Shown piece by piece: positions 21,064 to 33,238 of a stretch of 44,392 nt of DNA. The notes below the pieces were generated by a model. The model was not told the DNA's origin. It worked only from the letters and a program-made list of their open reading frames with translations, and ran no database searches. The stretch comes from an uncultured Lachnospiraceae bacterium (GTDB taxonomy: Bacteria; Bacillota; Clostridia; Lachnospirales; Lachnospiraceae). The stretch lies in contig CANTEW010000021.1 of NCBI GenBank assembly GCA_947652925.1, positions 1 to 44,392 of the forward strand. Reading direction: 5' to 3'. Positions within the stretch are counted from its first letter, which is position 1. Each line of letters opens with the position of its first letter. A program made the position numbers and the translations under genes.

Positions 21064-22161
21064 ATGGACAGAGAGAAGATAGAGGGGCGGGACCATGTGG
21101 TGAGGGGCACCGCTGCAGGCGGGCAGATCCGTGCCTTTGCCGCGGATGCGAGAGAGTTGACGGAGACGGCCAGGCAAGCACATGATACAAGTCCGGTGGC
21201 CACGGCCGCCCTGGGGCGGATGCTGACAGCCGGTGTGATGATGGGCGTGATGATGAAAGGGGAGAAGGATCTTCTGACCCTGCAGATCCGATCCCAGGGC
21301 CCGCTGCAGGGGATCACAGTGACTGCGGATCCCCATGGGAATGTGAAAGGCTATGTGGGAAACCCGCATGTATGTATCCCGGCCAACGCACAGGGCAAAC
21401 TGGACGTAGCCGGGGCTGTGGGAGAGGGCAGCCTGCAGGTGATCAAAGACCTGGGGTTGAAAGAACCTTATCTAGGCCAGACAGAACTCCAGACCGGGGA
21501 GATCGCCGAAGACCTGACGTATTATTTTGCAGCCAGCGAGCAGATCCCTTCTTCTGTGGGTCTGGGTGTGCTGATGGATAAGAACAATACAGTACGCCAG
21601 GCGGGGGGGTTTATCATCCAGCTGATGCCGGACACCCAGGAAGAGGTGATCGCCCGGTTAGAAAAAAATATCCGTGGCCTCAAGCCAGTGACCACCATGC
21701 TGGAGTCCGGCCTCACACCAAGACAGATGCTGGAGACAGTACTCGATGGGTTTGATGTGGAGGTCTTAGGGACCGCGCCCTGCAGGTTTTACTGCAACTG
21801 TGACCGGCAGCGGGTGGAGAAAGCCCTGATCAGTATCGGGGAAAAAGAGATCGAGGATATGATCCGGGAAGGGAAAGACGTGGAGCTGAACTGCCATTTC
21901 TGCAATAGCCATTATATATTTACGCCGGAAGACCTGAGAAGGTTGGTGGATCGGTCAGATATCTTTGGAGGGGTGAGGTGTATGTCAAAAGCAAAAGTAT
22001 TACATGATCTGTATGAGCAGTGCAGATCTATTGAGTTTGATGAATCATATGATCTGTTGAAAGAAGCACGAGATAAAGAAGAAGAAGATTTCTTTCGTGT
22101 TGTTACAGATTTTATATTGCGGCAGAAACAGAAAGCAGTGGTCAGGGAAAAGAGATCTTGA
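21064..22161 (+). CDS. hslO: Hsp33 redox chaperone, fused in frame to a 60-residue antitoxin-like tail
   Basis: The protein has 365 residues, while Hsp33 normally has about 290-300. Residues 1 to about 300 are a standard Hsp33: a folded chaperone domain, then the zinc/redox switch with FYCNCDRQRVE and ELNCHFCNSHYIF (CxC and CxxC). Oxidation releases zinc and activates this chaperone. After LRRLVDRSDIF the frame runs without a stop into about 60 charged helical residues (21982-22161), which have their own RBS and start codon and precede a zeta-like toxin gene. The Hsp33 end looks as if its stop was replaced when this module arrived. A GTG at 21061 is an alternative start. Confidence 0.88.
   Translation: MDREKIEGRDHVVRGTAAGGQIRAFAADARELTETARQAHDTSPVATAALGRMLTAGVMMGVMMKGEKDLLTLQIRSQGPLQGITVTADPHGNVKGYVGNPHVCIPANAQGKLDVAGAVGEGSLQVIKDLGLKEPYLGQTELQTGEIAEDLTYYFAASEQIPSSVGLGVLMDKNNTVRQAGGFIIQLMPDTQEEVIARLEKNIRGLKPVTTMLESGLTPRQMLETVLDGFDVEVLGTAPCRFYCNCDRQRVEKALISIGEKEIEDMIREGKDVELNCHFCNSHYIFTPEDLRRLVDRSDIFGGVRCMSKAKVLHDLYEQCRSIEFDESYDLLKEARDKEEEDFFRVVTDFILRQKQKAVVREKRS
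21982..22161 (+). CDS. Putative antitoxin of zeta-like toxin (internal start within the hslO frame)
   Basis: ATG 21982 is preceded by GGAGGGGTGAGG and would give a 59-residue, charged, mainly helical protein (IEFDESYDLLKEARDKEEED). Its stop overlaps the toxin's TTG start by four bases, the usual antitoxin-first order. Base composition becomes AT-rich here, unlike the Hsp33 part. I do not recognise a named antitoxin family with certainty; the role is inferred from position, size and coupling. Confidence 0.55.
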   Translation: MSKAKVLHDLYEQCRSIEFDESYDLLKEARDKEEEDFFRVVTDFILRQKQKAVVREKRS

Positions 22162-22730
22162 CATTAAAAAGTTATATTATATTTGCTGGTTGTAATGGTG
22201 TGGGAAAAACCACATTACGTCAGACAAACCAGAGATTTTCGAGGATCCCAGAAGTCAATATGGATAAGATGGCCCGGGAACTGGGTTCCTGGAAAGATCC
22301 AAGAGTGTTAATGGAAGCTGGGAAGATGTCTGTCCGTAAAATAAAAGCATATTTTTCACAGGGGATAACATTTTCGCAGGAGACAACACTATGTGGAAAT
22401 ACGATCTTAAATAATATAGAAAAGGCAAAAGAACAGGGATATACCATCGTAATGTATTATGTTGGAGTCTCTTCTGTCGAGATCGCGAAAAAAAGGATAC
22501 AGCAACGGGTAGAGAATGGCGGACATGGCATACCCTCGGCAGATGTGGAAAAACGTTATGTAGAGTCTCTTAAAAAATTGAAGATCGTGTGTCCCCTATG
22601 TGACATTTTGGAATTATATGATAATTCGGATGTTTTTTTGAGAGTGGCCAGAGTGGAAAATGGTGTTTGTGTAGAAAGAGTCCCGGATCGTCCTCTGTGG
22701 GTCAGAGATGTATTGGGAGAGTTGTCATAG
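22158..22730 (+). CDS. Zeta toxin-like P-loop kinase
   Basis: This 190-residue protein has Walker A GCNGVGKTTLRQ (Lys17), NMDKMARELG after it, FSQETTLCG, and the distal KKRIQQRVENGGHGIPSADV with Arg residues. This R-V-x-x-GGH-x-IP pattern is typical of zeta-like kinases. Zeta toxins phosphorylate UDP-N-acetylglucosamine and block wall synthesis when not held by their antitoxin; some relatives are not toxic. TTG 22158 overlaps the preceding stop (TTGA). The gene is clearly richer in A and T than its neighbours, which suggests recent transfer. It ends 25 bases before nadE. Confidence 0.78.
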   Translation: MTLKSYIIFAGCNGVGKTTLRQTNQRFSRIPEVNMDKMARELGSWKDPRVLMEAGKMSVRKIKAYFSQGITFSQETTLCGNTILNNIEKAKEQGYTIVMYYVGVSSVEIAKKRIQQRVENGGHGIPSADVEKRYVESLKKLKIVCPLCDILELYDNSDVFLRVARVENGVCVERVPDRPLWVRDVLGELS

Positions 22731-22755: not shown

Positions 22756-24663
22756 ATGGAACAGGGATTTATAAAAGCAGGCGCGGGAACGCCGAAAGTG
22801 CGGGTCGCGGATTGTGCATACAATGCCGGTCAGATCATACAGGTGATCCGGCAGATGGGAGAGGAACAGGCGAAGATCATCGTACTGCCGGAGCTTTGCA
22901 TCACAGCGTATACCTGCGGGGATCTGTTTTGGCAGGAGAGGCTGCTGGAGGAGGCAAAAGGGCAGCTCCTGCGGATCGCCCGGGAGACGAGGGATGTGGA
23001 GGCGCTGGTCTTTGTGGGCTTTCCGCTGGAATATGAGAGCAAGCTCTATAATGTGGCGGCTGTGCTGGATCAGGGCAGCATACTGGGGATGGTGCCGAAA
23101 GTCCATATCCCCAATTACAATGAATTTTATGAGGCGCGGTATTTTACCTCGGGGCGTGATGTGGAAGGTGTTATAGAGCTGGGAGGCCATGAGATACCTT
23201 TTTCACCCGATCAGATCTTCGTCTGTGAACAGATGCCGAAGCTGAAAGTGGGGGTGGAGATCTGCGAGGATCTGTGGGCGGCGGATCCGCCCAGTAATAG
23301 GCTGGCCCTCCAGGGGGCGAATGTGATCGTAAATCTGTCTGCCAGTGATGAACTGGCGGGAAAAGCGGATTACCGCAGGGATCTGGTGCGGGGCCAGTCG
23401 GCCCGGTCACTGTGCGCATATATCTATTCTTCTGCCGGGGAAGGGGAATCCACCCAGGATGTGGTCTACAGCGGACACAGCCTGATCGGGGAAAACGGTG
23501 TGATCCTTGCTGAGAGCAGGCGATTCCAGAATGATATCATTTATGCCGACCTGGATATCTTCCGTCTGGAAGGGGAGCGCAGGCGCATGTCCACGTTCCA
23601 GCCGGAGGGCAGGTATCACGAGAAGGTCCCTTTTAGTCTGCGTCTGCAGGAAACAGTGCTGGACAGGGTATTTTCCCCGGATCCTTTTGTGCCGGAGGAC
23701 CGTGGCGACCGCAGCCAGCGGTGTGATGAGATCTTGGATATCCAGGCCATGGGATTGAAACAGCGGCTGGAGCATACAGGATGCCGCTGGGCAGTGCTGG
23801 GCTTGTCCGGGGGATTGGATTCTACGCTCGCCCTGCTGGTGACGGCGCGGGCTTTTGACAGATGTAAGATACCCAGGGAGAACATCATGACAGTGACCAT
23901 GCCCTGTTTTGGCACCACAGACCGCACGTATCAGAATGCCTGCAACTTGAGCCGATGTATGGGTACGACTTTGAGGGAAGTGGATATCAAGGAAGCGGTG
24001 ACCATCCATTTCCGGGATATCGGGCAGGATCCCGGGAAACATGATTTGACGTATGAGAACAGCCAGGCGCGGGAGCGGACGCAGGTCCTGATGGATCTGG
24101 CCAATCAGAAAGGCGGGATGGTGATCGGGACAGGGGATCTGTCGGAACTGGCTCTTGGATGGGCTACCTACAATGGCGACCATATGTCCATGTACGGTGT
24201 GAACAGTTCCATACCGAAGACACTGGTGCGCTATCTGGTGGATCACTATGCGGATACTTGTGGTGATGCGGCGCTCACTGAGATATTGAAAGACGTGTTG
24301 GATACTCCGGTCAGTCCGGAACTCCTTCCCCCCACAGACGGGACGATCTCACAGAAGACAGAGGATCTGGTGGGGCCGTACAGACTGCACGATTTTTTCC
24401 TATATTATATGCTGCGCTGGGGATATCCGCCGCGTAAGATCTACCGGGTCGCATGTCTGGCTTTTGAGGGGATCTACGAGGAGGAGATCATAAGGCATTG
24501 GCTGTCTGTTTTCTATAAACGCTTTTTTGCGCAGCAGTTTAAGCGTTCCTGTCTGCCGGATGGACCGAAAGTGGGTTCCGTGGCGGTCTCTCCCAGGGGC
24601 GACCTGCGGATGCCCAGCGACGCCTGCGGCGCAGCCTGGCTAAAGGAACTGGCGGAGGTTTAA
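22756..24663 (+). CDS. nadE: NAD(+) synthase, glutamine-hydrolysing
   Basis: This 635-residue enzyme makes NAD from deamido-NAD, ATP and glutamine. The N-terminal half is a nitrilase-type glutaminase: catalytic Glu in VLPELCITAY, Lys in VPKVHIPNYNEFYE, and Cys in VGVEICEDLW. The C-terminal half is the synthetase with the ATP-pyrophosphatase loop LGLSGGLDSTLAL and GTGDLSELALGW. Length matches the two-domain form. ATG 22756 has AGGAGG five bases before it; GTG 22750 overlaps the RBS. Its stop overlaps the stop of the convergent gene by three bases. Confidence 0.95.
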   Translation: MEQGFIKAGAGTPKVRVADCAYNAGQIIQVIRQMGEEQAKIIVLPELCITAYTCGDLFWQERLLEEAKGQLLRIARETRDVEALVFVGFPLEYESKLYNVAAVLDQGSILGMVPKVHIPNYNEFYEARYFTSGRDVEGVIELGGHEIPFSPDQIFVCEQMPKLKVGVEICEDLWAADPPSNRLALQGANVIVNLSASDELAGKADYRRDLVRGQSARSLCAYIYSSAGEGESTQDVVYSGHSLIGENGVILAESRRFQNDIIYADLDIFRLEGERRRMSTFQPEGRYHEKVPFSLRLQETVLDRVFSPDPFVPEDRGDRSQRCDEILDIQAMGLKQRLEHTGCRWAVLGLSGGLDSTLALLVTARAFDRCKIPRENIMTVTMPCFGTTDRTYQNACNLSRCMGTTLREVDIKEAVTIHFRDIGQDPGKHDLTYENSQARERTQVLMDLANQKGGMVIGTGDLSELALGWATYNGDHMSMYGVNSSIPKTLVRYLVDHYADTCGDAALTEILKDVLDTPVSPELLPPTDGTISQKTEDLVGPYRLHDFFLYYMLRWGYPPRKIYRVACLAFEGIYEEEIIRHWLSVFYKRFFAQQFKRSCLPDGPKVGSVAVSPRGDLRMPSDACGAAWLKELAEV

Positions 24664-25094
24664 ACCGCCGCCTTTTTTAATGCCGTGGAGATGGCATTGA
24701 TCAATATGAGGGAGGTATATTTGTTCTCCTCGGAATATGAGATATCGTCTAGGGACTGGGAAGTGTAGATCTGGCTGGCCAGATCGTCCAGTGTGGGTTC
24801 CATCAAGGGGAACATGGCTGTCGTACTCTCACTTAAGTTTACCAGCCGTATGGCTTTTATCCGGTTGCTGTCAACGGTCACTTCTACATCGAATGTGTTT
24901 TCGTGGATCGCTATGGTGGAAGAATATACGCCCGGCTGATAGCGGACATCGCCGTCGGCGGAGGCTGATCCAGCCTTTTGGGGGCCGAACATCAGGAAGA
25001 GGAGCACGCCTAATAAAAGGGCGAGCACCAGGAAAACGATGGTGTAGACTACTTCTTTCATATGTAATACGACGATCTTTGTTTTTGCACTCAT
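24660..25094 (-). CDS. Small membrane-anchored protein with FMN-binding-like domain
   Basis: This 144-residue protein has one N-terminal hydrophobic helix (about residues 15-36) followed by an extracellular domain. The region YQPGVYSSTIAI...VEVTVDSNRIKAIRLVNLSESTT resembles FMN-binding (RnfG/NqrC-type) domains. A threonine is present near the usual flavin-attachment position, but the full motif is not clear, so flavin binding is uncertain. The RBS is GTAGGAGG. It converges on nadE, sharing stop-codon bases. Its function is unknown. Confidence 0.6.
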   Translation of the reverse strand: MSAKTKIVVLHMKEVVYTIVFLVLALLLGVLLFLMFGPQKAGSASADGDVRYQPGVYSSTIAIHENTFDVEVTVDSNRIKAIRLVNLSESTTAMFPLMEPTLDDLASQIYTSQSLDDISYSEENKYTSLILINAISTALKKAAV

Positions 25095-32530: not shown

Positions 32531-33238
32531 ATGACCGGGGGTTTTGGCGACGGCGAATGGGCGGTCTATGTAAAAGACTTGACAGACGGAGGTTCTTTTG
32601 ATATCAACAGCCATCAGATGGAATCGGCCAGTCTGATCAAGCTCTATATCATGGGAGCGGTCTGCCAGGCCATAGAGAGCGGCTTTCTTTCCGATACCCC
32701 TGAGATCCGGGAGCAGATGGAACAGATGATCACAGTCAGTGACAACGAGTCCTCCAACCGTCTGGTGGAGGCGTTGAGTCCCAGCGGGCTGGACCATCCG
32801 GAGGGGCGGGACGTTGTCAATGGGTTCGCGGCTCTCAATGGGTTTTCCGATACGTCCCAGGGCAGGGCTTTAAAAGACCACAGGGATGTGGAGCCGGTGG
32901 AGAAGAACTATACATCCGTCAGGGACTGCGGCCTGTTCATGGAAAAAGTATACCGGGGCGAGTGTGTCTCCCCGGAAGCTTCCGGGCGGATGCTGGAACT
33001 ATTAAAGAGGCAGCAGAACAGGGAGAAGATCCCCGGCGGCCTGCCGAAGGATACGATGACGGCCAACAAGACCGGGGAGGTCAGTACGATGGAACACGAT
33101 GCGGCTATCGTCTATGGTCCTGGGAGGGACTATGTCCTCTGTGTGATGTCCGTGGGTCTTACAGATACCCGGGCGGCGCGGGAGCATATCCGGGAGATCT
33201 CGGCGATGGTCTATGAGGGATTTGGGAGGTTACAGTGA
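32531..33238 (+). CDS. Class A beta-lactamase-like serine hydrolase (catalytic part)
   Basis: The 235-codon frame from ATG 32531 contains the three active-site motifs of penicillin-binding serine hydrolases: SLIK (Ser34, Lys37; SxxK), SDN in ITVSDNESSN, and KTG in TANKTGEVS. No clear Omega-loop ExxxN motif is seen, so it may be a cell-wall or peptide hydrolase and not a drug-resistance enzyme. From this ATG it would lack any export signal, although the domain should act outside the cell. The anchor lies just upstream in another frame (see 32290-32520). The mntP start overlaps its stop. Confidence 0.78.
   Translation: MTGGFGDGEWAVYVKDLTDGGSFDINSHQMESASLIKLYIMGAVCQAIESGFLSDTPEIREQMEQMITVSDNESSNRLVEALSPSGLDHPEGRDVVNGFAALNGFSDTSQGRALKDHRDVEPVEKNYTSVRDCGLFMEKVYRGECVSPEASGRMLELLKRQQNREKIPGGLPKDTMTANKTGEVSTMEHDAAIVYGPGRDYVLCVMSVGLTDTRAAREHIREISAMVYEGFGRLQ

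Follow-up and report, generated by a model that had tools for sequence, protein, structure and literature searches.

The central question raised by this locus is why the gene for the chaperone Hsp33 should run, in frame, into what looks like a small antitoxin, directly in front of the gene for a putative toxin. The window analysed here is a whole contig of 44,392 bases, and the junction between hslO and the antitoxin lies in mid-contig. The earlier note had pointed out that the Hsp33 frame does not end behind its zinc domain, and indeed it stays open on the plus strand from ATG 21064 (with GTG 21061 as an alternative start) to TGA 22159-22161. This single frame of 21064-22161 encodes 365 amino acids, i.e. 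a complete Hsp33 followed by a tail of 59 residues.

The hslO part occupies positions 21064-21981 of the plus strand, including a short linker at its end. PF01430 covers residues 10-287 of the fused frame (E 1.7e-106; 356.1 bits against a curated cut-off of 21.4), NF001033 scores 336.2 bits with a cut-off of 244, and the Hsp33 zinc motif is complete (C-x-C-x30-C-x2-C, represented by CNC and CHFC, with the last pair at residues 277 and 280). Past Hsp33, about 20 residues still have counterparts in relatives; then follow the short linker and the methionine encoded at 21982. The earlier description of some 60 charged residues with a ribosome-binding site of their own held for the RBS-like GGAGGGGTGAGG and the ATG at 21982, and is corrected here to 59 residues, counted from the internal methionine and preceded by the linker. 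That the tail might be a normal C-terminus of Hsp33 was rejected, as all of the 40 other Hsp33 loci examined end 15-24 residues after the CxxC motif and none bears the tail. These loci represent 39 genes (G023 entered twice), 29 of the loci coming from relatives and 11 being the longest other frames among the matches listed, in which the extra length was N-terminal only. Neither these loci nor the family, order and class draws of genomes yielded an Hsp33 carrying the tail without a toxin gene, and Hsp33 itself was found in 373 of the 397 family genomes searched.

The tail (21982-22161, plus strand) is modelled as three helices (mean pLDDT 88.1) and matches a profile of its homologues, in which it is itself included, at E 4.1e-23. 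It is 51% identical to the stand-alone homologue L035 and 61% identical to L063, the best aligned. In Lachnospiraceae genomes, and also on a plasmid of Fusobacterium, stand-alone homologues with the same start position are located directly 5' of homologous kinases. When searched with an HMM of the tail, 100 of 110 kinase loci, the window included, had an antitoxin homologue upstream (the match at L047 being partial and weak, 28.8 bits), and this small gene, overlapping or adjoining the toxin gene and kept together with it across genomes, conforms to the layout of type II toxin-antitoxin systems. The 110 loci consist of 80 named ones, the best 80 of 228 relatives, and 30 with G handles, and some records occur in both sets, e.g. 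L038 and L114. By their titles, 46 of these best 80 of 228 relatives are Lachnospiraceae, and the selection may omit the species of the window itself. Among the ten loci lacking an antitoxin homologue, nine have kinases 32-36% identical to that of the window, and one (L048) 45%. At the position of ATG 21982, a start codon was present in 57 of 57 aligned antitoxins (Met in 55, GTG in two), the alignment comprising the window and the 56 homologues, out of 74, whose match was nearly full-length. A chance open frame was rejected as an explanation of the tail, since it belongs to this conserved family. No Pfam match to epsilon, PezA or another known antitoxin family was obtained for the tail or for any of 17 members. 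The data support the view that the tail is an antitoxin-type protein with its kinase behind it.

Matches to the tail profile were found in 39 of 397 genomes of the family, 27 of 392 of the order and nine of 245 of the class, where the window's own genome is counted each time and the draws overlap, so that these are not counts of independent genomes. Only the match of the window was seen inside an Hsp33 frame, a marginal match in a long frame (G728:C91, E 7.9e-4, frame of 352) aside; a weak match was also noted in an open frame of 111 (G666:C85, L181). An unfused open reading frame on the same strand, ending at most 60 bases before the antitoxin, was present at four of the 80 named loci (best 80 of 228), when frames of at least 110 amino acids were taken as putative genes.

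The second gene of the cassette (22158-22730, plus strand) encodes a protein of 190 amino acids and starts with TTG 22158, which overlaps the antitoxin stop codon TGA 22159-22161. This TTGA overlap (22158-22161) is as previously noted, and an overlap of four bases occurs also at L034, L035, L036 and L040. The proposal that the protein is a zeta-like P-loop kinase stands for the family more firmly than for the window alone. The Zeta_toxin model (PF06414) gives 19.8 bits with the window kinase, below the cut-off of 22.3 (E 5.6e-4), whereas it matches 15 of 15 family members, that of the window included, at E of 0.1 or lower (best 4.6e-9), and the homologue from a Fusobacterium plasmid passes the cut-off with 48.3 bits. 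The window kinase is therefore zeta-like by sequence, remotely. In 62 of 62 aligned rows (the window and 61 of 79 available homologues) K17 of the Walker A motif GCNGVGKT, D36, E75-T77, R113 and R117 are invariant, and the AF2 model is confident (mean pLDDT 92.6, pTM 0.89). According to PMC3062530, Asp66/Asp67 acts as the catalytic base and Thr118 contacts UDP-GlcNAc; we infer from its place after Walker A that D36 may be the equivalent of Asp66/67, and T76 or T77 could play the role of Thr118. A profile search of PDB sequences listed 43 matches at E of 1 or lower, which included adenylate kinases and other P-loop proteins and no zeta entry.

The kinase family was detected in 45 of 299 family genomes, own genome included, and matched 589 records of the plasmid collection, four of the phage collection and four viral contigs. 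A mobilizable plasmid of Fusobacterium hwasookii carries a homologous pair: in a search of four proteins, the tail profile gave 26.5 bits with its 57-aa protein and the kinase profile 216.3 bits with its kinase. Comparison with anti-phage defence families brought up no more than three kinase matches, all weak (E 0.026-0.043). Several variants of such loci were encountered. On a Fusobacterium plasmid (L184:1161-3169), zeta-type kinases are arranged in tandem, a canonical one (160.7 bits) being followed by the homologous cassette. At L053, L055, L057, L059 and L061, more distant zeta-like kinases stand behind an unrelated short open reading frame with a conserved end of the YPDGRREYV type, which seems to be another kind of antitoxin, serving a related toxin. 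Two kinase homologues, L164 (G116) and L051 (G066), look broken, one missing its middle stretch and the other bearing an in-frame stop, and the antitoxin is intact.

The genus is represented by five genomes in the analysis, and in the four besides that of the window hslO has its own stop and no tail; neither tail nor toxin was matched within the 4.5-7.5 kb around hslO in these four. The earlier note had taken a stop codon between the two parts in related genomes as a sign of an assembly error; a stop behind Hsp33 is present, but in relatives devoid of the cassette, which leaves the proposal of a landed module intact. On the other side, the cassette is bordered by nadE (22756-24663, plus strand, start at ATG 22756), encoding an NAD synthase with a CN_hydrolase domain (PF02540, PF00795). 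This gene lies directly behind hslO in two of the four genus relatives (G003 and G004), about 1.6 kb beyond it in G001, and outside the 4.5-7.5 kb stretch examined in G002. Outside the genus, hslO and nadE are direct neighbours in seven of 25 relatives, while in 18 nadE is not found within about 1.5 kb, and in none of these 25 does a tail or toxin stand beside hslO. The hslO-nadE order is thus recurrent, not general; since the genes on either side of the cassette occur naturally side by side, a chimeric contig is unlikely. The genus relatives by themselves already show what we take to be the empty insertion site. The reported shift to AT-rich DNA at the junction was confirmed as well: GC content falls from 0.57 in hslO to 0.39 in the antitoxin and toxin genes and returns to 0.56 in nadE, and GC3 from 0.68 in hslO to 0.29 in the antitoxin and 0.37 in the toxin, with 0.66 in nadE. 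Taken together, the stand-alone homologues, the absence of the tail from 40 of 40 Hsp33 loci, the hslO-nadE adjacency in two of the four genus relatives and the fall in GC3 indicate that the end of hslO is where the cassette landed, as had been suggested.

Two further features of the surroundings may be mentioned. A 144-aa open reading frame on the opposite strand (24660-25094, minus strand), with no Pfam match at 1e-5, lies between nadE and addB, and a protein of the Beta-lactamase2 fold (32531-33238; PF13354, E 9.8e-42) is encoded amid housekeeping genes.

A separate problem is how the junction is read by ribosomes. The Shine-Dalgarno-like GGAGGGGTGAGG (21967-21978, plus strand), located inside the hslO frame before the antitoxin ATG, contains a GGGG run at 21970-21973. 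With a pairing energy of -13.0 kcal/mol to the 16S tail, ATG 21982 has the strongest such signal of 345 in-frame internal ATGs within the 27 window frames taken as genes (the next being -12.2), and free antitoxin is therefore likely to be the main product. The kinase TTG 22158 has a weak Shine-Dalgarno site (-5.1), which is consistent with coupling through the overlap with the antitoxin. A scan for a promoter of the cassette's own at the end of hslO gave four sites in 2 kb, with 2.5 expected. As the earlier note assumed, both a free and a fused antitoxin are encoded, through the strong internal start and the open frame.

The fused form is more delicate. Directly behind the GGGG run, a TGA (21974-21976, plus strand) is in frame one base over; shifting the frame by one base before 21974 would end Hsp33 about 23 residues after the CxxC motif, and this stop would fall five bases upstream of the antitoxin ATG. 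On the sequence at hand, the fusion is dependent on one base and one genome. The claim that the incoming module had removed the hslO stop is a fair description of the frame, but a one-base shift accounts for the open frame just as well as a stop lost upon insertion. The sequence is compatible with two histories: the cassette may have landed behind hslO as a normal separate gene, the frame being opened later by a change of one base, or a single base may be wrong in the assembly.

The new element in our analysis is that in-frame fusions occur elsewhere in this antitoxin family, with another host gene at L065 and with a helix-turn-helix domain at L118 and L162. At three of the 100 antitoxin loci, more than 100 open codons precede the antitoxin in its own frame, namely in the window (311), at L065 (154) and at L118 (108), the next value being 61. 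At L065 (3427-3996) a host gene continues in frame into an antitoxin of this family; a homologue of the upstream part, 64% identical, occurs in G196, one of two genomes matched among 200 (the other at 34%). The G196 gene stops alone shortly after the shared part, from which it follows that at L065, too, the host gene ran into the antitoxin. In L118 (3540-4007) the antitoxin stands behind a helix-turn-helix domain (HTH_3 of Pfam, E 4.6e-9), and by similarity to it a closely related fusion is seen at L162 (G231), where the minus strand has an open frame of 161 aa. Such an arrangement is in keeping with antitoxins that act as regulators of their own operon. These helix-turn-helix fusions and L065 support the antitoxin reading and show that an N-terminal partner is tolerated. 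Their recurrence does not show anything about the function of the Hsp33 fusion.

The probable explanation, in our opinion, is that a zeta-type cassette was inserted exactly at the end of hslO, before nadE, and yields mainly free antitoxin and a minor amount of the fusion. This reading is built on what can be seen in the DNA, namely the family to which the cassette belongs, relatives whose hslO has no cassette beside it, flanks that adjoin each other in relatives, the break in composition and the open frame of the fusion. It is also favoured by the Shine-Dalgarno rank of ATG 21982, the homologous pair on the Fusobacterium plasmid and the helix-turn-helix fusions, and the sub-threshold Zeta_toxin score of the window kinase, the PDB matches without a zeta entry, the limited spread of the hslO-nadE order and the departures of the window pair from its family speak against it. 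In such a scenario, the pair, consisting of the 59-aa antitoxin and the overlapping 190-aa zeta-like kinase, would have been acquired horizontally and placed between hslO and nadE, the substrate of the kinase probably being a UDP-sugar. Transcription of hslO would feed the cassette, so the pair would be driven at least partly from hslO. Ribosomes would mostly initiate anew at ATG 21982, giving free antitoxin, and the toxin would be translated after it by way of the stop-start overlap. Provided that the frame is real, a fraction of the ribosomes that translate hslO could read through and produce a minor Hsp33-antitoxin fusion, an extra source of antitoxin that would probably be neutral or mildly helpful. 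The toxin-antitoxin pair and its landing site are clear, the tailed chaperone being a putative product.

Since the fusion is seen in a single genome, a sequence error or a neutral by-product has to be reckoned with. If one base too many or too few near the GGGG run hid the hslO stop at 21974, the locus would be an ordinary coupled operon. The position of this TGA at the end of Hsp33 in relatives and the resulting spacing, typical of coupled genes, speak for such an error, as does the single genome. On the other hand, a run of four bases is short for a sequencing error, and the in-frame host-gene fusion at L065, although likewise from a single metagenome assembly, indicates that fusion does occur in this antitoxin family. 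We regard an assembly error as unlikely, while keeping it in mind for the fused frame.

Relaxed selection offers another, rather improbable, view of the fusion, according to which toxin and antitoxin are drifting and the cassette is in decay. The window antitoxin departs at two near-invariant places, F59S (F in 56 of 57 rows) and Q47R (Q in 53 of 57), and only two of the 57 rows depart at least twice where conservation is 90% or more; at columns of this conservation the window toxin has the most departures of all 62 rows (8 of 60). However, with the threshold set at 95% the toxin departs in one of 47 columns, an unremarkable value matched or passed by 26 of the 62 rows, counting itself, and the three departures of the antitoxin at ten columns of 80% conservation are reached by 11 of 57 rows. 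Moreover, both frames are intact, the candidate active residues are conserved throughout (62 of 62 rows), and the sampling inflates the departures, since the homologues in it resemble one another more closely than they resemble the window. The departures may thus reflect adaptation, decay or mere distance from the sampled relatives, and the pair could, on these alignments, be weakened.

The proposal that Hsp33 links the redox state to release of the toxin fared worst. Reduced Hsp33 would here bear an active antitoxin, and its oxidation, through disulfides, zinc loss and unfolding, would alter binding or lifetime of the antitoxin and free the kinase. All four zinc cysteines are present, the tail sits directly behind the redox domain, and the antitoxin family accepts N-terminal partners. 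In PMC4735815, oxidised Hsp33 is described to lose zinc and its linker to unfold. There is precedent for antitoxins controlled by a chaperone in the TAC systems, as stated in PMC5105189. The idea is, as we see it, physically reasonable, but separately made antitoxin would mask it: with the strongest internal Shine-Dalgarno signal of 345, free antitoxin would be made whatever Hsp33 does and would keep the kinase blocked. With one genome and one base behind the fusion, the conservation that selection would leave is absent, and the redox domain is described in PMC4735815 as regulatory, not client-binding. We find redox gating of the antitoxin very improbable, and give hardly more than a slim chance to a one-piece redox sensor and antitoxin, i.e. 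a chaperone captured by the cassette, with oxidation deciding whether the kinase is free.

Returning to insertion at the hslO end, the locus would exemplify a toxin-antitoxin pair taking over the end of a housekeeping gene, in which the antitoxin keeps its own start and yet tails a chaperone. What most deserves attention is that N-terminal fusions are found repeatedly in this family. Should captures of this kind prove recurrent (Hsp33, the host protein of L065, helix-turn-helix domains), toxin-antitoxin pairs could obtain sensors in this way, and the redox reading, were it true, would be one of several N-terminal sensor recruitments, along with the L065 host protein and the regulators of L118 and L162. 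The Hsp33 case lends itself to a direct test, as the fusion can be produced and its reduced form compared with the oxidised one.

In the titles and abstract beginnings of the open-access literature searched, no description of an Hsp33-antitoxin fusion was found. Comparison with known systems places its parts as follows. The TAC systems, with their SecB-like chaperone, share with the window a chaperone gene directly beside a toxin-antitoxin pair on the same strand, and a possible influence of the chaperone on the antitoxin. Unlike them, the window has Hsp33 as its chaperone, which is present in relatives without the cassette and stands N-terminal of the antitoxin, and its antitoxin is devoid of the C-terminal chaperone-addiction extension described in PMC5105189. 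Indeed, the window antitoxin ends like its stand-alone homologues except for the last residue, and a dedicated SecB-like chaperone is missing, which sets the locus apart from TAC. With Hsp33 (HslO), the redox-regulated holdase, the window protein shares the full domain and the four zinc cysteines, but its frame continues for 85 residues past the last zinc cysteine, where the other 40 loci stop after 15-24. With respect to epsilon/zeta and PezAT, the window differs in having an antitoxin of 59 aa, without a Pfam match to a known antitoxin family and joined to Hsp33, and the UDP-GlcNAc kinase activity is putative. The helix-turn-helix-antitoxin fusions of L118 and L162 resemble PezA in layout. 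What the cassette has in common with epsilon/zeta and PezAT is a small antitoxin gene before a P-loop kinase, assigned to the zeta family by Pfam in the relatives of the window, and a conserved Walker lysine with an early Asp, in the manner of the catalytic Asp66/Asp67 given in PMC3062530.
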